Assembly: GCA_029253285.1 (NCBI GenBank)
Contig: JAQWZU010000180.1
Span: 1-39,954 of the forward strand
DNA: 39,954 bases
Source: Akkermansiaceae bacterium
GTDB taxonomy: Bacteria > Verrucomicrobiota > Verrucomicrobiia > Verrucomicrobiales > Akkermansiaceae
Direction of reading: 5' to 3'
Shown here: positions 26,421 to 39,405 of the stretch, one piece after another
How the letters are laid out: each line of letters opens with the position of its first letter
Position numbering within the stretch: the stretch's first letter is position 1
The notes under the pieces: generated by a model
Databases searched by the model: none
What the model was told of the DNA's origin: nothing
What the model saw: only the letters and a program-made list of their open reading frames with translations
Translations under genes and position numbers: made by a program

Positions 26421-28424
26421 ATGGCGAGTTGGAATGACGACCGGCTTGAGTTGGCTCTTCGGGCCTCCCGGGAAGGGATATGGGATTGGGATTTGGAGAA
26501 TAATTCCATCTACTATTCCGGTCGCGTATTGAGGTTTTTGGGGTATCGACGCAAGGACGCTCCAAATCTTTTCGAAAAGCGGAAGGAGCTCATGGACGAA
26601 GCGTCGGTTGCCGAGATGGACGAGGCCTTGCGCCGGGTTTCTGAAGGAGGGGATGATTTGTTTTCCGCCGAGCCCCGCGTAAATACCCAGAAAGGTGGCT
26701 GGCGATGGTTTCGCCTGAGAGGGACGCCGGTGAGAAATGACGAGGGTAAGGTAGTGCGCATCGTGGGAAGCGCGATTGAGATTTCCAAGCGTAAGCAGGC
26801 GGAGAGGGAGCTGAAGGAGGAGCGTTATTTGATCCAGACACTCATGGATAGTATTCCGATGAATTTGTATTTCAAAGATGTGGAATCGCGCTTTGTGATG
26901 GCGAATCAAGCAACGGCCGAGAAAATGGGGTTTCCATCGTCGGACGAATTAATCGGGAAGAGCGATCGTGATTTCTTTCATGAGGATCATGCCCAGGTGG
27001 CCCGTGAGATGGAGCGGGAAATCATGAATACCGGGAAAGGTGTTTATGATCAGATTGAGCATGAAAAATGGGATGACCGGGAGGATACCTGGGTGACCAG
27101 TACTAAGCACGCTTGGTTGGATCGCAGCAGAAAGGTGAAAGGGACCTTTGGGGTGACCAATGATATTTCCGATCTGATGCGGGCCCGCAATGAACAGGAG
27201 AAAGTCGCCGGGAAGCTTCATCAACAGGGGTTGAAGATCGAAGAGGAACGTCAGCGGATGAGGCTGATCATCGATAGCGTTCCGATGAATGTTTACTTTA
27301 AAAACCGGGATTCGCAGTTCGTGATTGTGAATCAGTCGATGGCGGAGTGGGTGGGCGAAAGCCAGCCATCGGATCTCTATGAAAAAAGCGATCGCGACTA
27401 TTTTTCAGAGGAACACTGGAGTGGGGCGGAAGCAGATGAGAAAGCGATTATCGGAAGCGGAGAGGCGATGGTGGGGCTCGTGGAAAAGGAAACATGGAGT
27501 GGTAAAGAGGATACCTGGGTGATGACCTCGAAGTATCCCTGGCGTGATAATGAAGGAGCAGTGGTGGGAACCTTTGGAGTGTCGAGCGATGTGAGCGAGT
27601 TGATCAGCGCCCAGCGCGAGATGACGGAAATGGCGGAGTCACTTCAGACAAAGAACAAGGAAATGGAAGAAGAGCTGAATCTTGCCCGCGAGGTGCAGCA
27701 GGCCTTGATTCCCGACGAGCTTCCCTCGATGTTCGTTCAATCGGAAGAGGGAGAGGTTAATTTGAGTTTTAAACACCTGTATCGTCCGGCCTCTGAGTTG
27801 GCGGGGGATTTTTTCGAAGTGCTGCCTCTTGAGGATGATCGAATGGGGTTCATTGTCAGTGATGTCATGGGGCACGGCGTGCGCTCGGCCCTGGTGGTCT
27901 CGATGTTGCGAGGCTTGATTGAGCAACAGGCTGGTTCAGCCAGCGATACAGCGGAGTTTATGACGGGGTTGAATGATGGGTTAACGCATTTGCTCGAAGA
28001 GTCTGGTGTGGTGCTCTTTGCCACCGCGATATGCGGAGTGGTCGATTTGCGAAATGAGACCGTGCAAATAACCGTGGCAGGTCACCCAAACCCCATCGCG
28101 GTGTTCGAAGATGGAACCCGTCAACTGGCTCCTCCCGCGGAGGCTTCCGGTCCGGCCTTGGGCCTGGTGCCCGGGTTTGAGTATGGTTCGGTGACCGCGT
28201 CCCTGCAGGGCCTTCGGCGGATCATTTGTTTCACCGATGGCATCTTCGAGGTGATGAATGAGTGGAAGGAGGAATTTGGCATCGATCACATGATTGAAGT
28301 GATCGAGCGCGGAGGCCAGTTGGAGCGGGTTTTGGAGAATTTAGTGCAGGCAGCTGAAGAGTTTGCAAAGCAGGGAGTCTTCGACGATGACCTTTGTTTG
28401 TTGGGGATGGAGGTGAGGCGATGA
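26421..28424 (+). CDS. PAS-PAS-PAS-SpoIIE phosphatase (RsbU-like), copy 1
   Basis: A 667-residue cytoplasmic signalling protein with three PAS domains (about 8-120, 137-255 and 265-405) followed by a short helical linker (LAREVQQALIPDELPS) and a SpoIIE/PP2C phosphatase domain (about 440-660). The metal-binding aspartates are in ELAGDFFEV, VSDVMGHGVRSAL, CFTDGIFEV and VFDDDLCLL. Such proteins usually dephosphorylate an anti-anti-sigma factor and thereby switch on a sigma factor or another partner; no such partner gene is next to it. No membrane segments are seen, so input is probably a small ligand or redox state sensed in the cytoplasm. It overlaps the following paralogue by ATGA, which implies translational coupling. 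Confidence 0.9.
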   Translation: MASWNDDRLELALRASREGIWDWDLENNSIYYSGRVLRFLGYRRKDAPNLFEKRKELMDEASVAEMDEALRRVSEGGDDLFSAEPRVNTQKGGWRWFRLRGTPVRNDEGKVVRIVGSAIEISKRKQAERELKEERYLIQTLMDSIPMNLYFKDVESRFVMANQATAEKMGFPSSDELIGKSDRDFFHEDHAQVAREMEREIMNTGKGVYDQIEHEKWDDREDTWVTSTKHAWLDRSRKVKGTFGVTNDISDLMRARNEQEKVAGKLHQQGLKIEEERQRMRLIIDSVPMNVYFKNRDSQFVIVNQSMAEWVGESQPSDLYEKSDRDYFSEEHWSGAEADEKAIIGSGEAMVGLVEKETWSGKEDTWVMTSKYPWRDNEGAVVGTFGVSSDVSELISAQREMTEMAESLQTKNKEMEEELNLAREVQQALIPDELPSMFVQSEEGEVNLSFKHLYRPASELAGDFFEVLPLEDDRMGFIVSDVMGHGVRSALVVSMLRGLIEQQAGSASDTAEFMTGLNDGLTHLLEESGVVLFATAICGVVDLRNETVQITVAGHPNPIAVFEDGTRQLAPPAEASGPALGLVPGFEYGSVTASLQGLRRIICFTDGIFEVMNEWKEEFGIDHMIEVIERGGQLERVLENLVQAAEEFAKQGVFDDDLCLLGMEVRR

Positions 28425-30409
28425 ACGAATCAAGCGACCGTTTGGAGTTGGCTCTCAAGGCCTCGAATGAGGGGATTTGGGAGTGGGATTTGTTGAGTGG
28501 GACCATTTTTTATTCCAACCGGGTGTTGATGTTTTTGGGATATGGAGTCACCGGAGCCCCTAATTTTTTCAAGGATCCCGAAGAGCATGTGCATCCCGAG
28601 GATCTGAAAAAATTCATCAAGAAACGCGATCGGGTAATTTTGAAAAAAGGTCGCTTGTTCGCGATGGAGTCGAGGGTTCGGACCCGGAGCGGAGAGTGGA
28701 AATGGTTTCGGATGAGGGGGATTCCCGAACGGGATGATCAGGGTGCAGTTTTGAAAATGGTGGGAAGTCTGATTGATATTTCCAAGCGGAAGAATACCGA
28801 ACTGGCCCTGATGGAGGAGCGGGCGAGGATCGATCTCGTGCTGGAAAGTGTTCCAGTGAATGTATACTTTAAAGATCGGGAGTCACGATTTGTGCGGGCA
28901 AACAAGGCGACGGCCCTTCGGATGGGAGCGGGATCGGTTAAGGAGTTGGTTGGGAAGACCGACCATGACTTTTTCGAGAAGACGCATGCTGACGCTTCCC
29001 GGGCCAAGGAACTCGAGATCATGGAGACCGGTTCCGAGAAAGTGGAGGAGTTGGAGCATGAAGTCTGGGAGGACCGGGAGGATACCTGGGTGCTGGTGAC
29101 CAAGAAGGTGTGGCGCAATATGGAGGGTGAACTTCTGGGGACTTTTGGGGTCACCAACGATGTGACCGAGTTGATGAAAACGAGGGAGAACCTGGAACGC
29201 GTGGCGGAACAGTTGCAGATCGTGAATCAGGACATTGACGAGGAGCGTAATCTTTTACGACTGGTGATCGATAACATTCCGATGTTCGTTTATTTCAAGA
29301 ACTTGAAGTCCAATTTTGTTTTGGTGAACCAGGGAATGGCCGATCTTTGTGGGGAGAGCTCCCCCGATGACCTGGTTGGGAAGCATGACCGGGATTATTT
29401 CACCGAAGATTTGTTTATTGGGTCCCAGGGAGATGAAAAGAGGATCATGAAGTCGGGCGAGCCGATCGTGAATAAGCTCGAGGAAATTTCCTGGAAGGAC
29501 AATCACAAGACTTGGTCGATGTCGTCGAAATTTCCGTGGTATGATCCTGATGGAAATCTGATCGGAACATTCGGGGTTTCGGGGGACGTCACCGAGTTGG
29601 TGCAGACCCGAAATGATCTCGCCAAGATTGCTGGGGATTTGGCGAGGAAGAACGAGGCGATGGAGGAAGAACTGAGGCTGGCTCGTGAGATCCAGCAGGC
29701 GGGGGTCCCGAAGAGTCTACCGGAGATTGATGGCGGAGATTGGAAATTGAAATTCCAGCACATTTATCAACCGGCTACGGATCTGGCAGGTGACTTTCTG
29801 GAGGTCAGAAACCTGGGCGATGGTCGGGCGGGATTTTTGGTCTGCGATGTGATGGGGCACGGGGTGCGGGCTGCCCTGATTGTCTCGATGTTGCGGGGTT
29901 TGGTGGAAAAGCAGGGAAGGATTGCAGGGAGTCCGGGAGAATTTCTGGCCGGACTGAATGATGGCTTGTCCCATCTTCTTGAAAGGATTGGTCTGACCAT
30001 GTTTGCGACGGCTTCGTATGGTGTGGTGGATTCAAGGAAAGGCGAAGTGTGTCTGGCTTCGGCGGGTCATCCTTCGCCCATTGGGAAGATTTCCGGGAAG
30101 GTCGAGGTGCTCGAGTTTGCCAAGGGAGCCAAAGGGCCGGCTCTGGGAATGTTGCCGGGGATGCCCTACGGAGAAATGGTGCTTCCTCTGGTTGGTTTGG
30201 AAGCTTTGTGGTGTTTCACCGATGGGGTGTTTGAGGTGCGGAATGGCTCGGACGAGGAGTATGGGGTGGAGAGGATGAAGGAGATTTTGGCATCTGAATC
30301 CGGTTTCCGGATTGTCGACTTGGTCGAGGATGCACGGAAGTTTTCCGAGGGGAGAGGATTTGAAGATGATGTGTGCCTTTTGGAGTTGGAAGTCTCGCGC
30401 AAGGCTTGA
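28421..30409 (+). CDS. PAS-PAS-PAS-SpoIIE phosphatase (RsbU-like), copy 2
   Basis: A 662-residue paralogue of the preceding gene with the same architecture: three PAS domains, linker LAREIQQAGVPKSLPE and SpoIIE phosphatase domain. Metal motifs are DLAGDFLEV, VCDVMGHGVRAAL, CFTDGVFEV and FEDDVCLLELEV. The two proteins share many matching stretches (for example DRLELAL at the start and EEERxxMRL- or DEERNLLRL-type helices between PAS domains), so this is a tandem duplication, though clearly diverged. ATG 28421 is preceded by GGAGGTGAGG at 28410-28419 and overlaps the upstream stop as ATGA. pfkA follows 21 bases later. Two phosphatases with different PAS inputs could feed the same target; that is inference. 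Confidence 0.9.
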   Translation: MNESSDRLELALKASNEGIWEWDLLSGTIFYSNRVLMFLGYGVTGAPNFFKDPEEHVHPEDLKKFIKKRDRVILKKGRLFAMESRVRTRSGEWKWFRMRGIPERDDQGAVLKMVGSLIDISKRKNTELALMEERARIDLVLESVPVNVYFKDRESRFVRANKATALRMGAGSVKELVGKTDHDFFEKTHADASRAKELEIMETGSEKVEELEHEVWEDREDTWVLVTKKVWRNMEGELLGTFGVTNDVTELMKTRENLERVAEQLQIVNQDIDEERNLLRLVIDNIPMFVYFKNLKSNFVLVNQGMADLCGESSPDDLVGKHDRDYFTEDLFIGSQGDEKRIMKSGEPIVNKLEEISWKDNHKTWSMSSKFPWYDPDGNLIGTFGVSGDVTELVQTRNDLAKIAGDLARKNEAMEEELRLAREIQQAGVPKSLPEIDGGDWKLKFQHIYQPATDLAGDFLEVRNLGDGRAGFLVCDVMGHGVRAALIVSMLRGLVEKQGRIAGSPGEFLAGLNDGLSHLLERIGLTMFATASYGVVDSRKGEVCLASAGHPSPIGKISGKVEVLEFAKGAKGPALGMLPGMPYGEMVLPLVGLEALWCFTDGVFEVRNGSDEEYGVERMKEILASESGFRIVDLVEDARKFSEGRGFEDDVCLLELEVSRKA

Positions 30410-31472: not shown

Positions 31473-32162
31473 ATGAAAACACGTTTGTTGAAGTTGTGGC
31501 GGGAGTGGCGAAATACTGCTCTGTTTTTTGGATTGGTGATTGTTCCGGTGAAGTCCGTTCTTGCTGATCTCAATTGGGTGCCGACCGGGTCGATGAATCC
31601 GACCATTCTGGAGGGTGATTTGGTTTATGTCGATAAGGCGGCTTATGACTTACGCGTTCCGTTGACTTTGAAGAGAGTGGCAGAGTGGGCAAATCCGGAG
31701 CGGGGAGATGTCGTGGTGTTCTTTTCCCCAGATGATGAAACCCGGATGGTGAAGCGGGTGATTGGTCTTCCGGGCGACACCCTGGAATTGATCAACAACG
31801 TTCTCGTGATCAATGGTCGGTCCGTTGATTATGGTCCTCTTTCAAGTGAACAAAGCAAAGGCTTGGCTCCGCAATGGCAGGAACGGGCAAGATTTGCCGA
31901 GGAGGGTCTGGATGGCCGGAGGCATGCCGTGATGGCCTTGGCGGGAGTGGAGAATCCCAAACGTAGTTTTGCTCCGATTAAGATTCCCGAGGGAAGTTAT
32001 TTCATGATGGGCGACAACCGGGACAATAGTAGGGACTCCCGATTCTACGGAATTGTGAAGAGAGAACAAATCGTGGGAGAAGCCAAGCGCGTGCTGTTGT
32101 CCTTTGACCTGAACAACTGGCTCAAACCAAGGCTGTCCCGCTTTGGCGAGGCGCTTCAATAG
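31473..32162 (+). CDS. lepB: Signal peptidase I
   Basis: Cleaves signal peptides of exported proteins at the outer face of the cytoplasmic membrane. The 229-residue chain has one N-terminal hydrophobic segment (about 16-31) and the catalytic motifs: nucleophile S40 in PTGSMNPT, general base K94 in MVKRVIGLPGD, and GDNRDNSRDSRFYG near the C-terminus. One segment of about 35 residues between the conserved boxes is extra relative to minimal enzymes but common. Its last 7 bases overlap the end of ispA on the other strand. A long hairpin in the leader may affect its translation. Confidence 0.95.
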   Translation: MKTRLLKLWREWRNTALFFGLVIVPVKSVLADLNWVPTGSMNPTILEGDLVYVDKAAYDLRVPLTLKRVAEWANPERGDVVVFFSPDDETRMVKRVIGLPGDTLELINNVLVINGRSVDYGPLSSEQSKGLAPQWQERARFAEEGLDGRRHAVMALAGVENPKRSFAPIKIPEGSYFMMGDNRDNSRDSRFYGIVKREQIVGEAKRVLLSFDLNNWLKPRLSRFGEALQ

Positions 32163-33040
32163 TCGCGATCGAGGAGGTAGTGGGCGATCGCTTCAAGGCG
32201 AACCGCCTTCTTCCCGAAAGCCGAGAGAGCCGCGAGTGCCTTTTTAGTAAGGCGCGCGGCTTCTTTTTTGGATTTATCCAGACCAAGAATGGACGGGTAG
32301 GTGGCCTTATCGACGGCTTCGTCTTTGCCGGCCGTTTTTCCGAGTTGTTCGGTTGATTGAGTGACATCGAGAATGTCGTCGATGACCTGGAAGGCGAGAC
32401 CGAGATTGTATCCGAAGTCGGTGAGGGCTGCGAGCTGTCTCGGAGTGGCGTTGGCGGTCATGCCGCCGAGGCGGAGGGAGGTGGTGAGAAGCGCGGCGGT
32501 TTTGTTTTCGTGAATGCGAATCAGCTGCGCCTTGCTGAGATCCTTACCTTCGCCTTCGAGATCGAGCACCTGTCCTCCGATGAGTTTTTTGGATCCGCCA
32601 CAGGTCGAGAATTCGAGGAGAAGCTCTTTGAGGGAATAGCGTTTTGTTGGAGGGGTTTCGGCCAGGACAATGAAAGCCTCGGTGAGCAAGGCGTCGCCGG
32701 TGAGAACAGCCATGCCTTCGCCATAGACCTTGTGAGAGGTTGGTCGGCCACGGCGCAGGTCGTCGTCGTCCATCGAGGGAAGGTCGTCGTGCACAAGGGA
32801 ATAAGTGTGCATGATTTCCACCGCACAGGCCGGGCGGAGGGCGTTTTCGGCTTCACCGCCACAGGCTTCGGCGGCGGCGAGGGTGAGAATGGGACGGAGC
32901 CGCTTGCCGCCGGCGAATACGGAGTAGCGCATGGCCTGATGAATGGTCCGGGGGCGTTCGGTGCTACGAGGGAGAAAGGCGTTCAGCGAATCATCGATGA
33001 GGGATTGCTGGCTTTTAAGATAGGCTTTGAGGTCGGACAC
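32156..33040 (-). CDS. ispA: Polyprenyl synthetase (farnesyl/geranylgeranyl diphosphate synthase)
   Basis: Condenses isopentenyl diphosphate with allylic diphosphates to give C15 or C20 isoprenoid precursors. The 294-residue protein has FAGGKRLRP, the first aspartate-rich motif DDLPSMD (85-91) preceded by YSLVH, the GGQVLDL region, and the second aspartate motif in VIDDILDVT. DDDDLRRGRPT after the first motif is as in bacterial FPP synthases. Product chain length (FPP or GGPP) cannot be fixed by eye. It is transcribed toward lepB and away from the peroxiredoxin gene; the start is ATG at 33040, leaving 94 bases for divergent promoters. Confidence 0.93.
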   Translation of the reverse strand: MSDLKAYLKSQQSLIDDSLNAFLPRSTERPRTIHQAMRYSVFAGGKRLRPILTLAAAEACGGEAENALRPACAVEIMHTYSLVHDDLPSMDDDDLRRGRPTSHKVYGEGMAVLTGDALLTEAFIVLAETPPTKRYSLKELLLEFSTCGGSKKLIGGQVLDLEGEGKDLSKAQLIRIHENKTAALLTTSLRLGGMTANATPRQLAALTDFGYNLGLAFQVIDDILDVTQSTEQLGKTAGKDEAVDKATYPSILGLDKSKKEAARLTKKALAALSAFGKKAVRLEAIAHYLLDRDY

Positions 33041-33134: not shown

Positions 33135-33641
33135 ATGAAACTCAAAAGCATCTTTGTATGGCTGGCTTCGGCGCTGGCTCTCTCGGCCGCTCCATTGAAG
33201 TCGGGAGACGGCCTTCCCAAGTTGGAGGGGAAAAATCAGGACGGGAAAGTGGTGAAACTGGAAGCGGGGAAAGACCACAAGTGGCTTTTGATTTTCACCT
33301 ACCCGAAAGCCCTGACCGGGGGATGAACCAGGCAGGTGTGCTCGGTGCGGGACGCATTCGATAAGTTGAAAAGCCACAAGGTCACGATTTTTGGTCTCTC
33401 CATGGACTCGGTGGAGAAGCAGAAGGAATTTTCCTCCAAGCATGAACTTCCCTACGATCTTATCGCTGATACCGATGGCAAGATCGCCAAGGCGCTGGGA
33501 GTGCCGCTCAAAATGGCCGGAAAATTCACGGCGCGTCAGGCTTATCTCTTCAAGGATGGTAGGCTTGTGTGGAAAGATGAAAATGGAGCCACCGCGACGC
33601 AGGGCGAGGATGTCCTGAAAGCTATTTCTTCTTCAGAGTAG
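33135..33641 (+). CDS. Exported selenocysteine peroxiredoxin (PrxQ/BCP type), TGA read as Sec
   Basis: Reading through the single in-frame TGA at 33324-33326 gives a 168-residue peroxiredoxin that reduces hydroperoxides. A signal peptide (MKLKSIFVWLASALALSAAP) is followed by LIFTYPKALTGG, then Sec64, then TRQVCSVRDAF. In PrxQ/BCP enzymes the peroxidatic cysteine stands exactly there (P-G-C-T-x-Q-x-C) and the resolving cysteine is five residues later, here C69. Downstream, FGLSMDSVEKQKEF, LPYDLIADTDGKIAKALGV and RQAYLFKDGRLVWK match the rest of the fold. Both sides of the TGA are in one frame with no other stop, so a frameshift is not needed. A stem-loop follows the TGA at 33335-33358. The alternative, a nonsense mutation or base error replacing Cys, is less likely because the codon falls on the catalytic residue. 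The last 20 bases overlap the convergent hydrolase gene. Confidence 0.85.
33335..33358 (+). promoter_or_regulatory. Candidate bacterial SECIS stem-loop
   Basis: Beginning 8 bases after the TGA, GGTGTGCTC (33335-33343) pairs with GGG and CGCATT (33349-33358), nine pairs including GU pairs, with one bulged A at 33352. The apical loop is GGTGC (33344-33348), 17 bases after the TGA. A loop starting with GGU resembles the E. coli fdhF element that binds SelB. Folding was done by hand. Confidence 0.65.
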
Positions 33642-34917: not shown

Positions 34918-37900
34918 TTAGCCGTTGGCAATCTTCATACGGAGAGTGGCCACACCGGTGATCGCGAGCACTCCGATCGCGACTAGGATTGCTGAAACAG
35001 GAAGGCCAATTCCGCCGGAAGGAACTTGTGCGAGAGGTCCGGAGGGGCCTGCTGCTTCTTTAATTTCAGGTTGAATCATGTCGCCTTGGGTCAGAGCTGG
35101 CTTGCCCAATTCCCCTCTCTGCGCGGCCACCATTTCTGGTGTGACGACAGGAGCGGAGTTGCCCCAGGAATTTCGAATGAAGGTAATGACGGAAGCGATG
35201 TTCTCGTCGGACTGTCCTGCTCCCATGGCAGGCATTGGAGCGGGGAAGTTGTATTCTTGTCCGGCTACGGTGATTGGGCCGGAGAGTCCACGGAGTTGAA
35301 TTCCAATCAGGTTTTCGGGAGGCCCGGTGACCCACTCTGAATTGGCAAGTGGAGGCCCAAGGTTGGGCACCCCCGCACCTGCGGGGCCGTGGCAGGCGAT
35401 GCAGAGGTTATACTGGGTTTTGCCGAGTTCCATTACTGCTGGGTCGATGGTGTTTTCTTCGCTCACGGTTTTTTCAGTGGGTGTTTGGTTTTGAGATTCG
35501 TCTTTGGGAGTCGTGCCGGACTTGGGATCGTCCGTTTTGGGCTCTTCGGTTTTGGTGTTTTTGGCAAGGGTCAAATTTCGAACCTCGTATGCAGGGGCCT
35601 TTTCATCGGATTCCTTGGTCAGAGTCAAGAGCCACGCGACAAGATCTCGAACTTCTTGTGGTTTGAGAATGGCCCCCATGGGTGGCATGGCAGAGGTTTG
35701 AGTGGGCCTTACTTTAAGGTCGGATTTCTGAATGCGCCAGCTTGTTTCTCCTTCCTTGAGATCGAAGTGGCTTTTTGTTTCCGCCAAAACGAGGCCTGCT
35801 TTGGTGGAACCATCGTGGAGGCTGAGGGTGGCGACGCCGAAACCAGGGGTGATTTGGGAGTTGGGGAGAATGATGGATTCGAGAAGTCCTTTGGCATTTT
35901 GGCGGAGGGCCACGCCCATCAGGTTGGGGCCTGCTTCGCCGCCTTCGGTGTGGCCGGACTCGTGACGGTGGCAGCGCATGCACTGGGCGGCTCCGTGGGA
36001 CTGGAAAATCTTGAAGCCGTTCTTGGCATTCCCTCCGGCAAGGGTTGGAGTCCATTGGGCGAGCGGATCTTTTCCGGCGAGGGACTTTTGGTAGTCGGTG
36101 AGGGCGGTTTTCATGACCGGCTCGGGTCGGGAGCGGACGGCTGCCAGGAGTTCGAAGGTGGAGGCGGGGTCGCCCTTTCCGGCGGCGAGCTGGGTCATGC
36201 CATCGCGCAAGAGGGGAATAGCGTGCTCGGCGGGGAGAGCGGAGGCGATATTCCAGGCGGTTTGGCGTCGGGTCATACTCTTGGAGAGCAAGGCTCCGCG
36301 CAGGGCGGCAACATTGGCGGCGGGATCACGGGTGGCGGCGAGCTCCAGGGCGGAGGTGGCGAGTTGGTCGTTGGAGGATTGGGCCGCTTCGTTTAGGATT
36401 TTGGCGAGTTCGGCGCTCGGAGACTCGGCGAGTAGCTTGAGTGCTCCGGCGCGGGTCTCGCCATCGACTTTTTCATTTCGGATGAGCCGAGTGAGGGTGC
36501 CGGAATCGAGTTTGTCGTGTGAGAGTTCGTATTTGAGAGCCAAGCCGAGTGTTTTGGCGAGAACAGGGGTGTCGGACTGCAGGAGGAGGTGCAGGTTTTT
36601 GGCGAGGGCGTTTCTGAACTCGTCGGGCTCGCGGGGAGAGACCGGCGAATGTTTTCCGATGGACTGGTCGACGACGTGGGGCTTGGTCCACACTGAGATG
36701 AGTCGCATCGCTTCGAGGCGTTCGGCCCGGTCGTTCTTCTGATGAGAGGCGAATTTGATGAGGCGGAGGAGGTTCTTCTCGTGGCCGAGGCGATAGGCGC
36801 TGTGAAGGAGTCGGCGAATCATCATGCGGCTCAGGGGACGGCCGGGATTCTTGGAATCGGCGTTGTAGTCATCGAGGAGCGCGGCGAGAGCAGCCCGCAC
36901 GCTGAAGAGTTCGGTGTCGTTGATGGCGCGGATGGCTTCGTTGGAGACGTGGAGGTCGGGGTCGGCAATAAAGCGCACGATTTCGGGATTCCGTAAACGG
37001 CGGAGGGCGATGACTGCGGCGCGGCGCACGGCGGCCGAGGCATGGGAGGCGAGAGAGATGATTTCTTTGGGCGTGGCGTTTCCGGTCAGCCCCATGATTC
37101 CGGCGTGGCGGAGGTAGGGGTCGCGGTCGTTATTTTCCTCGAGGAGGGCGACGAGGTGGCTGGTGCCGTCGGGGGCGGGCTTGCGACCAAGGGCGATGGC
37201 GGCGAGGGCGCGGACCCGGAGGCTGGGATCTTGGAGGAGAGGGAGGAGCGGCGAGCCGTCGGTGAGCGTGGATTCTCCAAGAGCTTGGGCGGCTTGCCCG
37301 CGGACGATGAGGTCGGCATTTTTGAGAGCCCGGATGAGGAAGTTGCTTGCCGGTTCGCTCTTCTCCTTGCGAGCGAGTATTCCCAGTCCCCAGATGCCGT
37401 GAAGTCGTTCGGTGGGATTGAGCCGTTGGTTGGCGGCGGAAATGAAGATAGGCAAAGCGTCCTCCCGACCTGCCAGATGGTATTGAGCGCGGAGGCGAAG
37501 GCGAAAGTCCGGGTGGGTGAGAAGTTTTGCGAGATCGTCGGAGCTCTTTTCGGAGATTCCGGAGGCGATGATTTTTGCGACTTCATCGCCGGTGTTGGAT
37601 TGCTCCATGGTGTAGATCCGTCCGGCCTTGTGTGATTCCCATCCAGAGATGAAATCACTCACATAGAGCTTTCCATCATAGCCCCATTCCACGTCGGTGA
37701 CGGCGGCGCCCCAGCTGAATTTGCCAAATTGGTCGAGGGCGAATCCGGCGCCTTTTCGCTTGATGCCGAAGTGCCAGATTCCGGAGGAGGCTGCTCCGCC
37801 GCGATAGTCGCAGATGAGGAACTGGTCGCGGCTTTTGAGTTGGTATCCGGTGCCGGGATAATAGGCCAGGCCGGAAGGGCCCGAGGTAAGATTGGCGATA

Positions 37901-39405
37901 GGCGGAACGATGTGAGCGGGTTGGTCGGGGAAGTGGGGCTCCCACATTTTCTCCTGCATCCATTGGTTGATGGGACGGTCCGGGACGCCGGCAGTTTTGT
38001 GGAAGGAATGAAGGACCTGATGGCCCATGCGCCAGCCGGAGTCGGCTCCGTCCATCATAAAGACGACACGCGCGCGATCGCCTTGGTCGGAATTGTTATC
38101 GACGGTGATGGCGGTGCCGTATTGGTCAAAGGCAATTTCCTTGGGGTTGCGGAGGCCGAAGTGGACCACCTCAAAGTTGGAGCCGTCGGGGTCGAAGCGG
38201 AAGATGGCACCTTGATTGGGGTATTTGTATTCGCGGCCTTCCCGGGTGGTGAAGTTGAAGCCACGGTCGCCGATGGTGGCATAAATGCGGCCATCGGGTC
38301 CGAGAGCGAAGCCGTTGAGATCATGGCCGGAGAAAGAGACGCGGACCCCCATGCCATTCTGGATGACCTCGCGCTCGTCCGAGATGAGGTCGCCGTCTTT
38401 GTCGGTGAGTGTCCAGATATTGGGAATGCAGGCGAAATAGATGGTGCCTTCGAAGGCCATGATGCCAGCGGCGGTTCCGTCGAGGATTTCGTTGAAGCCC
38501 TCGGCGAAGACTTTGGATTCATCGGCCACTCCGTCTCCGTCGGTGTCAACAAGGACGCGCACTTTTTCGGAAAATTTGGTGAGATCGGCGACAGGCTTTT
38601 TGTGGTCCCACTTCCTGTGCATCGCAATCCGGTCATCGGTGGTCTGCGCGGCAATATCGTCCATGAGCCAATAGAGATGCCTGCGGTTATCCTCGACACT
38701 CGTCCCGAAGCGGTGGGTTTCGGCGACAAAGACGCGGCCTTGTTCATCGACGGAGAGAGCGGTGGGCGAGTAGACGCCGGAGGAGACGTTGTCGGCGAAG
38801 ATTTTAACCTCGGTGCCGTCGGGAACGGAGAGACCGGGAATGGCATCGGAGGAAATGAGCCCGTCTTTATCGGCATTGCCACCACCGGAGGTCCGGGGAA
38901 ATTTAGGTTCGGCGAGATCAGTGAAGAGGATGTGATCGGCATTGATGACACCCCAGCCCCCGCGTTCGGTATCGATGATGCGGAGTTGAGCCGTTTTCCC
39001 TTTGAGTCCAGAGACGTCCCAAATCGTGGGGCGCATCGTGAGGTCGTTTTGTCCGGTGGCTTCTTGGGTGATTTTGCCGTCCACTAAGAGCTGGACGGCT
39101 GTTTTGCCGGGGTGCTCGCCTCCTGAGACGAGGAGAGCGATGTTGGGGAGCTGAATTTTGAATTCGGGGGAGGTCAGTGAGCCGGTTGAGGCGTCGCCTT
39201 GGTGAGCTGAGCTGACGTAGTAGAGGTTGGCATATTTTTTGACGGTGCCATTCATGCCGGTCGGGCTGGACGAGGTGGGGGACTTGCCAAAAGCGGCGCC
39301 CTCGACTTTCCATTCGCCGAAGCCATCCGATTCGAAGGCATCGAACAAAATTTCAGCAGCATGGAGGGAGCCCGAAAGGGCGAGAAGAGTGGTCAGAATG
39401 CGCAT
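34918..39405 (-). CDS. PVC-type membrane-bound dehydrogenase with HEAT repeats and two cytochrome c sites
   Basis: A 1495-residue exported protein. After the signal peptide (MRILTTLLALSGSLHAA), an N-terminal galactose-binding-like domain (about 20-170; SGGEHPGKTAVQLLVDGK, GGWGVINADHI) resembles the C-terminal module of levanases. A dehydrogenase-like beta-propeller follows (about 195-605; GPDGRIYATIGDRGFN, GLRNPKEIAFD, VTDVEWGYDGKLYVSDF), then HEAT-like repeats (about 620-1100), a first heme site CMRCH (1142-1146), a second cytochrome c domain with CIACH (1335-1339) and a C-terminal membrane anchor (about 1465-1487). A low-complexity linker rich in Thr, Lys and Pro precedes the second heme domain. 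Such proteins are hallmarks of Planctomycetota and Verrucomicrobiota; they are thought to oxidise carbohydrates or related substrates and pass electrons onward. Substrate is unknown. A terminator follows. Confidence 0.9.
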   Translation of the reverse strand: MRILTTLLALSGSLHAAEILFDAFESDGFGEWKVEGAAFGKSPTSSSPTGMNGTVKKYANLYYVSSAHQGDASTGSLTSPEFKIQLPNIALLVSGGEHPGKTAVQLLVDGKITQEATGQNDLTMRPTIWDVSGLKGKTAQLRIIDTERGGWGVINADHILFTDLAEPKFPRTSGGGNADKDGLISSDAIPGLSVPDGTEVKIFADNVSSGVYSPTALSVDEQGRVFVAETHRFGTSVEDNRRHLYWLMDDIAAQTTDDRIAMHRKWDHKKPVADLTKFSEKVRVLVDTDGDGVADESKVFAEGFNEILDGTAAGIMAFEGTIYFACIPNIWTLTDKDGDLISDEREVIQNGMGVRVSFSGHDLNGFALGPDGRIYATIGDRGFNFTTREGREYKYPNQGAIFRFDPDGSNFEVVHFGLRNPKEIAFDQYGTAITVDNNSDQGDRARVVFMMDGADSGWRMGHQVLHSFHKTAGVPDRPINQWMQEKMWEPHFPDQPAHIVPPIANLTSGPSGLAYYPGTGYQLKSRDQFLICDYRGGAASSGIWHFGIKRKGAGFALDQFGKFSWGAAVTDVEWGYDGKLYVSDFISGWESHKAGRIYTMEQSNTGDEVAKIIASGISEKSSDDLAKLLTHPDFRLRLRAQYHLAGREDALPIFISAANQRLNPTERLHGIWGLGILARKEKSEPASNFLIRALKNADLIVRGQAAQALGESTLTDGSPLLPLLQDPSLRVRALAAIALGRKPAPDGTSHLVALLEENNDRDPYLRHAGIMGLTGNATPKEIISLASHASAAVRRAAVIALRRLRNPEIVRFIADPDLHVSNEAIRAINDTELFSVRAALAALLDDYNADSKNPGRPLSRMMIRRLLHSAYRLGHEKNLLRLIKFASHQKNDRAERLEAMRLISVWTKPHVVDQSIGKHSPVSPREPDEFRNALAKNLHLLLQSDTPVLAKTLGLALKYELSHDKLDSGTLTRLIRNEKVDGETRAGALKLLAESPSAELAKILNEAAQSSNDQLATSALELAATRDPAANVAALRGALLSKSMTRRQTAWNIASALPAEHAIPLLRDGMTQLAAGKGDPASTFELLAAVRSRPEPVMKTALTDYQKSLAGKDPLAQWTPTLAGGNAKNGFKIFQSHGAAQCMRCHRHESGHTEGGEAGPNLMGVALRQNAKGLLESIILPNSQITPGFGVATLSLHDGSTKAGLVLAETKSHFDLKEGETSWRIQKSDLKVRPTQTSAMPPMGAILKPQEVRDLVAWLLTLTKESDEKAPAYEVRNLTLAKNTKTEEPKTDDPKSGTTPKDESQNQTPTEKTVSEENTIDPAVMELGKTQYNLCIACHGPAGAGVPNLGPPLANSEWVTGPPENLIGIQLRGLSGPITVAGQEYNFPAPMPAMGAGQSDENIASVITFIRNSWGNSAPVVTPEMVAAQRGELGKPALTQGDMIQPEIKEAAGPSGPLAQVPSGGIGLPVSAILVAIGVLAITGVATLRMKIANG

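Follow-up and report, generated by a model that had tools for sequence, protein, structure and literature searches.

Bacterial peroxiredoxins with selenocysteine (Sec) in the active site are already on record. In the accessible part of PMC9312934, a Sec peroxiredoxin ("Prx") with the motif TxxU is listed as COG1225 (Bcp; example WP_011365628.1); Prx is listed as PF00578, again with TxxU, in the accessible portion of PMC13188914, and the available section of an ocean survey (PMC2398784) gives for Prx with TxxU the figure 253, which we take as the number of sequences. Proteins with a UxxC motif, namely "Thiol:disulfide interchange protein" and "Prx-like thiol:disulfide oxidoreductase", are listed in the same parts of these catalogues (PMC9312934, PMC13188914). 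As far as the accessible text of PMC13188914 goes, the Prx family has its experimental reference in a Sec peroxiredoxin from Eubacterium acidaminophilum, and planctomycete selenoproteins are described in the available part of PMC4807772. As the accessible part of PMC9312934 lists a Sec form of BCP, the gene described here joins an already listed Sec-BCP family, of which it is a well-supported further member; the exported selenium relay discussed below is the bolder reading.

A word search for "verrucomicrob" gave no hit in the main texts of PMC2398784, PMC13188914, PMC1794560, PMC5029168, PMC9402790, PMC9312934 and PMC5330540. Literature searches combining selenoprotein or SECIS with Verrucomicrobi, PrxQ with selenocysteine, and DsbD with selenocysteine and periplasm yielded nothing on the present system, as judged by title or the beginning of the abstract. 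A verrucomicrobial or exported Sec-PrxQ was likewise the subject of no paper found by title or abstract start, in a search that most subscription papers lie outside.

The window (the whole stretch of DNA analysed, 39,954 nucleotides) corresponds to contig C53 of an assembly of 4.31 Mb (224 contigs, 96.7% completeness). The following features are relevant here:

33135..33641, plus strand: Sec-PrxQ gene, 168 codons and a TAG stop, with TGA read as selenocysteine (domain match, orthologues)
33135..33191, plus strand: N-terminal extension, residues 1-19, resembling a type I signal peptide, no lipobox (inspection, start of the PrxQ profile match, N-termini of orthologues)
33324..33326, plus strand: in-frame TGA for the predicted Sec64, the peroxidatic residue of PxxxTxxU (aligns with Cys in Cys-containing relatives)
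33339..33341, plus strand: codon of Cys69, the presumed resolving Cys at +5
32156..33040, minus strand: polyprenyl synthetase gene, the divergent neighbour and a marker of the orthologous locus (adjacent in the loci of the genus)

The gene starts with the ATG at 33135, has TGA (33324-33326) as codon 64 and ends with the TAG at 33639-33641 without any further in-frame stop. The preliminary description of this DNA had claimed that the TGA occupies the peroxidatic position of a PrxQ/BCP-type peroxiredoxin, that the frame is open on both sides of it and that a Cys follows five residues later, and all this is borne out: the single TGA in 168 codons lies in the active site PKALTGG-U-TRQV-C (i.e., P-x-x-x-T-x-x-U with Cys69 at +5 from U64), and a resolving Cys at +5 is a feature of PrxQ/BCP proteins. 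When the product is read with Sec, the AhpC-TSA match spans the TGA (residues 24-141, 91.5 bits, cut-off 26), and Redoxin is matched with 66.6 bits. No equivalog cut-off was reached among the NCBIfam profiles. The best equivalog was the PrxQ profile NF006960, with 93.9 bits against a cut-off of 140, and the gene is therefore named at the PrxQ-like level only; since this match begins at residue 20, residues 1-19 are regarded as an N-terminal extension. The AlphaFold2 model (33 sequences) has a mean pLDDT of 88.2 and a pTM of 0.84, but its N-terminus is modelled less confidently (pLDDT <50 at residues 1-3 and 12-16). Yeast Dot5 (2a4v, TMq 0.77), BcpB, BCP and Bcp1 (two chains) take the first five places among the fold matches of the model in the PDB, followed by other peroxiredoxin classes, and the profile search agrees.

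The Cys-containing PrxQ/BCP proteins (NF006960; PDB 2a4v, 3drn, 5iiz) thus share their fold with the window gene, and the aligned Cys relatives share the Cys at +5, but the window gene has Sec for the peroxidatic Cys and scores below the NF006960 cut-off. PrxU (NF040737), presumably identical with the E. acidaminophilum reference enzyme, is a peroxiredoxin as well, with Sec in the reference enzyme, but the PrxU profile is longer (233 positions) and reaches 33.7 bits against a cut-off of 270. With the listed Sec Prx (COG1225, PF00578) the window gene has the Pfam family, Sec at the peroxidatic position and PxxxTxxU in common, whereas it differs in the N-terminal export signal (recognized by inspection), in T-G-G-U and in the host group; Cys relatives have T-P-G where the window gene has T-G-G before U.

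In favour of a pseudogene or a sequencing or assembly error, in which a former Cys codon became a stop, a TGA in place of TGC or TGT needs only one base change, and Cys orthologues exist. Peroxiredoxins were searched for (P0001 search) in 97 genomes, own genome included. At least 35 of the 97 have a TGA inside a peroxiredoxin match, and an active-site TGA was seen in at least one fetched locus of each of these 35. Seventy peroxiredoxin loci were fetched, of which 69 were readable with the active site located (L069 was left out of the groups, and L041 is shortened at a run of N). They comprise 24 Sec loci with Cys at +5 (group A), 18 Cys loci and 27 other Sec loci without Cys at +5. In the column in question, the TGA is conserved among the orthologues, and Cys occurs in other relatives. 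A Cys at +5 is present in 24/24 group-A Sec rows and in 17/18 Cys rows. The Sec peroxiredoxins L067, L070, L078, L079, L080 and L081, which belong to other subgroups, have a Cys at +4 from Sec rather than at +5 (UTAEC, UTKQC, UIKQC, UTKEC).

The group-A locus (L021-L042) is found in 22 of the 27 genomes of the genus, with TGA in 21 of the 22 and TGT (Cys) in one (L026 of genome G010), and the polyprenyl synthetase gene adjoins all 22 of these loci, as against none of the eight other loci examined (within their short flanks). Three further group-A rows with TGA come from outside the genus. All 24 group-A Sec rows are free of in-frame TAA and TAG codons, and this, together with the recurrence of the TGA in 21/22 loci of the genus, argues against chance or a sequencing error. 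A second disruption in relatives, which the preliminary description had named as a warning sign, is thus absent from the orthologues. One paralogue, L069 (G005:C118), does have a TAG directly before its TGA, at a place where its relatives have Trp, i.e., a case of decay or an assembly error.

Both parts of the reading frame appear to be under purifying selection, as dN/dS was below 0.3 before the TGA (43 codons) as well as after it (up to 99 codons) in 9 of 9 hand-chosen pairs of group-A genes. This also bears on another reading, that the UGA terminates translation and that the C-terminal ORF is what counts. The TGA indeed hides the frame: under table 11, only a 101-aa ORF (33336-33641, from a GTG at 33336) remains in it, just as had been predicted for automatic annotation, and translation of any Sec gene can be expected to end at its UGA in some cases. 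Nevertheless, such a product would be devoid of the peroxidatic residue and of the first part of the fold, and the selection on the codons upstream of the TGA would have no place in this reading, which we regard as very improbable.

Directly downstream of the TGA, a short hairpin can be drawn:

33344-33348 paired with 33354-33358, loop 33349-33353, plus strand: SECIS-like hairpin GGTGC-gggac-GCATT (pairing and covariation across Sec rows)

Counted from the first base after the TGA, positions 18-22 pair with 28-32 around the loop GGGAC, and outer pairs (33342-33343 with 33360-33361) are possible around a bulged base. Position and size presumably agree with those of bacterial SECIS elements. All five core pairs are present in 23 of the 24 group-A Sec rows (L075 is the one Sec row without the stem) versus 0 of the 18 Cys rows. 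When the Sec rows are aligned (23 of them distinct), pairing holds in 96.5% of cells compared to 87.5% after shuffling, and the covariation score is 0.236 compared to 0.063; neither value was reached by any of 500 shuffles. Changes on both sides occur in three stem pairs (reached by 7/500 shuffles), e.g. G-C has become A-T in L039 and L049, while L043 and L049 have T-A for two G-T pairs; the number of further pair types in the Sec rows is unexceptional (reached by 62/500). Stems slid along the alignment score lower on every measure, except for pair types at -2 (equal), and the Cys rows are paired at the shuffled level (24.4% vs 26.4%). As a single sequence, the stretch behind the TGA of the window gene folded no better than shuffles (z of -0.80 for 27 nt and +0.30 for 52 nt), and these folds do not count towards the evidence. 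A hairpin kept with compensatory changes, a TGA shared within and beyond the genus and selection on both sides of it leave the pseudogene or error reading extremely improbable. A gene that standard annotation would split has in this way been recovered by conservation and covariation.

A covariance model (R1) run against the own genome returned the locus itself with 74 bits (one of the training rows of the model) and three other matches (E of 2.15, 4.39 and 7.67); the best of these, L093, has no TGA at the expected place and was rejected.

An in-frame TGA alone does not tell which residue is inserted, and UGA might be read as another amino acid (general recoding, e.g. UGA as Trp). The complete set of genes for Sec, the search for which had been proposed as a check, is present in the genome, each above its curated cut-off: tRNA-Sec (54 bits, Rfam cut-off 47; called by ARAGORN as tRNA-SeC with the anticodon tca), selA (490.6 bits, cut-off 267.9), selB (274.6 bits, cut-off 242.25; a frame of 647 aa in which the beta-barrel and winged-helix domains of SelB are recognized) and selD (373.5 bits, cut-off 125). 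The same cut-offs were exceeded in 14 control genomes by tRNA-Sec in five, selB in two, selA in one and selD in two cases, so the controls are not fully clean. The selD gene has an in-frame TGA of its own at SSCGGU-ASK, three residues before a Lys, a position that presumably fits the known catalytic one. Seven other TGA sites in the genome, as looked for in selD, DsbD and thioredoxin-fold families, coincide with active-site Cys/Sec positions, and seven other frames scanned in the window are open under table 11. All three observations speak against general recoding, which is hardly credible here.

The frame, the position of the TGA, the machinery, the conservation and the covariation of the hairpin can be read directly from the DNA. 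We consider it very probable that the product of the gene is an exported peroxiredoxin of the PrxQ/BCP type with selenocysteine as its peroxidatic residue, with UGA64 decoded with the help of the downstream hairpin; that Sec is actually inserted, and the protein exported and active as a peroxidase, is what we infer from these data. UGA64 would be decoded by tRNA-Sec and SelB, aided by the short hairpin directly 3' of it. Once exported, Sec64 would attack a hydroperoxide, Cys69 would resolve the product as a selenenylsulfide, and a thiol (or selenol) reductant of the envelope would re-reduce the latter.

The preliminary description had further stated that selenoproteins are rarely reported from this phylum. 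The Sec trait, though, is not rare in the group: selA exceeds the cut-off in 53 of the 97 genomes. Among the matches listed, selA is present in 33 of the 35 genomes with a TGA-containing peroxiredoxin versus 20 of the 62 others (Fisher's test, one-sided, p = 6.7e-10, counts that ignore kinship), and outside the genus in 10/10 versus 18/60 (p = 3.3e-5, with the same disregard of kinship). No selA match was obtained for two genomes with a TGA-containing peroxiredoxin, G001 (86% complete) and G022 (72% complete). In the wider phylum (387 genomes, drawn evenly), 162 have a match to the A4 alignment with an E value of 1e-25 or less, and five rows among the matches listed have TGA, i.e., the window gene, its own paralogue, and one row each in G036, G048 and G153 (a putative site in G153). 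Since TGA rows are so few among these matches, the group-A Sec form looks restricted to the genus together with a small number of relatives, whereas elsewhere Cys (no stop) appears to be the rule.

In the tree (rooted at the midpoint; rows L024, L025 and L030 begin at another Met, and the protein alignment has corrected starts), the Sec label needs at least four changes overall. The Cys orthologue of G010 (L026:1495-1995, minus strand) branches within the Sec clade, where the surrounding forks are starred, and its hairpin is lost. Because of this nesting, a change from Sec to Cys within the genus is the simplest reading. G010 retains selA, a TGA in its second peroxiredoxin (L056) and a further TGA within its DsbD match. 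The exchange of Sec for Cys along with the loss of the hairpin may serve as a natural experiment on SECIS upkeep.

The window gene is accompanied in its genome by other predicted exported selenoproteins, as TGA is present in 6 of 18 AhpC-TSA match rows (the window gene, a lipoprotein paralogue and four TlpA/ResA-like proteins) as well as in DsbD:

L126:542-2764, minus strand (G000:C66): the only DsbD_TM match of the genome, in whose CxxC an in-frame TGA takes the place of the first Cys
L052:567-1082, minus strand (G000:C75): the other Sec peroxiredoxin of this genome, which its lipobox marks as a lipoprotein; it has DTFWU, and position +5 is occupied by Lys and not by Cys
L161:1444-2490, minus strand; L162:172-1149; L166:1450-2139, minus strand; L171:1429-2130: exported-looking TlpA/ResA-like proteins with UGPC or UPPC

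All seven are predicted redox selenoproteins with an export-type N-terminus by inspection, a partial set, as the search covered these families only. The DsbD frame stops under table 11 after VDYTADW, but the stop is a TGA, beyond which the frame continues with U-LTC-K and completes a thioredoxin domain; read through, the protein has 740 residues with DsbD_N, DsbD_TM and Thioredoxin_7. The nearest NCBIfam model is seleno_TsoB (NF045694), a rhodanese/DsbD fusion-like selenoprotein, but with 167.7 bits the Sec-DsbD lies far below its cut-off of 805 and is set apart by the domains just named. The C-terminal part of DsbD was matched in 92 of the 97 genomes and contains a TGA in 32 of them (24/24 matched genomes of the genus and eight others); selA is present in 30 of these 32 versus 23 of the 65 others. 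The site was confirmed by position in 25 of 27 fetched loci, a check without L148 and L150 (motif unmatched) and the unfetched G046, G073, G076, G079 and G088. A hairpin downstream of the DsbD TGA has 93.7% of cells paired compared to 91.0% after shuffling (reached by 1/500) and one covarying pair (T-A to C-G) in six distinct rows (0/500). Its counts of covarying pairs and of pair types do not exceed the shuffles, hence it is less supported than that of the peroxiredoxin. In L052, a perfect hairpin (CGCTGC-aggct-GCAGCG) follows the TGA; the loop is ggtct instead in 15 of the 27 Sec rows outside group A. L161 and L162 have the hairpin sequence GAGCGGTCGCTC after the TGA in common. The four TlpA/ResA-like proteins share PF00578 and UxxC with the Prx-like thiol:disulfide oxidoreductase (UxxC/UxxU) listed in the accessible parts of PMC9312934 and PMC13188914, a likeness by description only.

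The occurrence of TGA at UxxC in DsbD and in four TlpA/thioredoxin-like proteins suggests a selenium-based envelope relay. More weakly, we infer that the electrons for Sec-PrxQ may come via the DsbD of this genome, a predicted Sec (UxxC) carrier. The preliminary description had called an exported Sec-PrxQ unusual, for its reductant must act outside the cytoplasm; to the question of this reductant, the predicted Sec DsbD provides a candidate answer. We tentatively propose that the relay might be genus-wide, with a Sec DsbD passing electrons through the membrane to Sec-containing proteins of the TlpA/thioredoxin-like type as well as to both exported Sec peroxiredoxins (the soluble one, which has a resolving Cys, and the lipoprotein, which has no Cys at +5), so that selenium would be used mainly in outer thiol chemistry. 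If true, this would be a testable answer to the question of how exported Sec peroxiredoxins are reduced. The gene itself points to a little-studied lineage that employs Sec in the thiol chemistry of exported proteins, including DsbD, the electron conduit of the membrane. Cys is found in the cytoplasmic-looking peroxiredoxin L157 and thioredoxin L175; it is also found in the exported-looking thioredoxin-like L174, and Sec is for this reason not a strict mark of export.

The same proteins allow for a different role of the Sec peroxiredoxin, that of an envelope thiol oxidant or sensor which passes oxidation on to partners and is not mainly a peroxide detoxifier. Relay partners may exist, since UxxC is present in DsbD and in four other exported-looking thioredoxin-fold proteins. 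On the other hand, the peroxidase motif PxxxTxxU and the Cys at +5 are kept; we consider the putative oxidant or sensor role unlikely and favour the peroxidase.

In the neighbourhood of the peroxiredoxin gene, an alpha/beta hydrolase gene adjoins it, and beyond this lies the gene (34918-39405 of the window, minus strand) of a 1495-aa protein with DUF7133, HEAT repeats and a cytochrome c domain. Elsewhere in the window (26421-30409), there are two similar, adjoining PAS-SpoIIE phosphatase genes, which overlap by ~30 bases, provided that the TTG assigned to the second gene is its true start.
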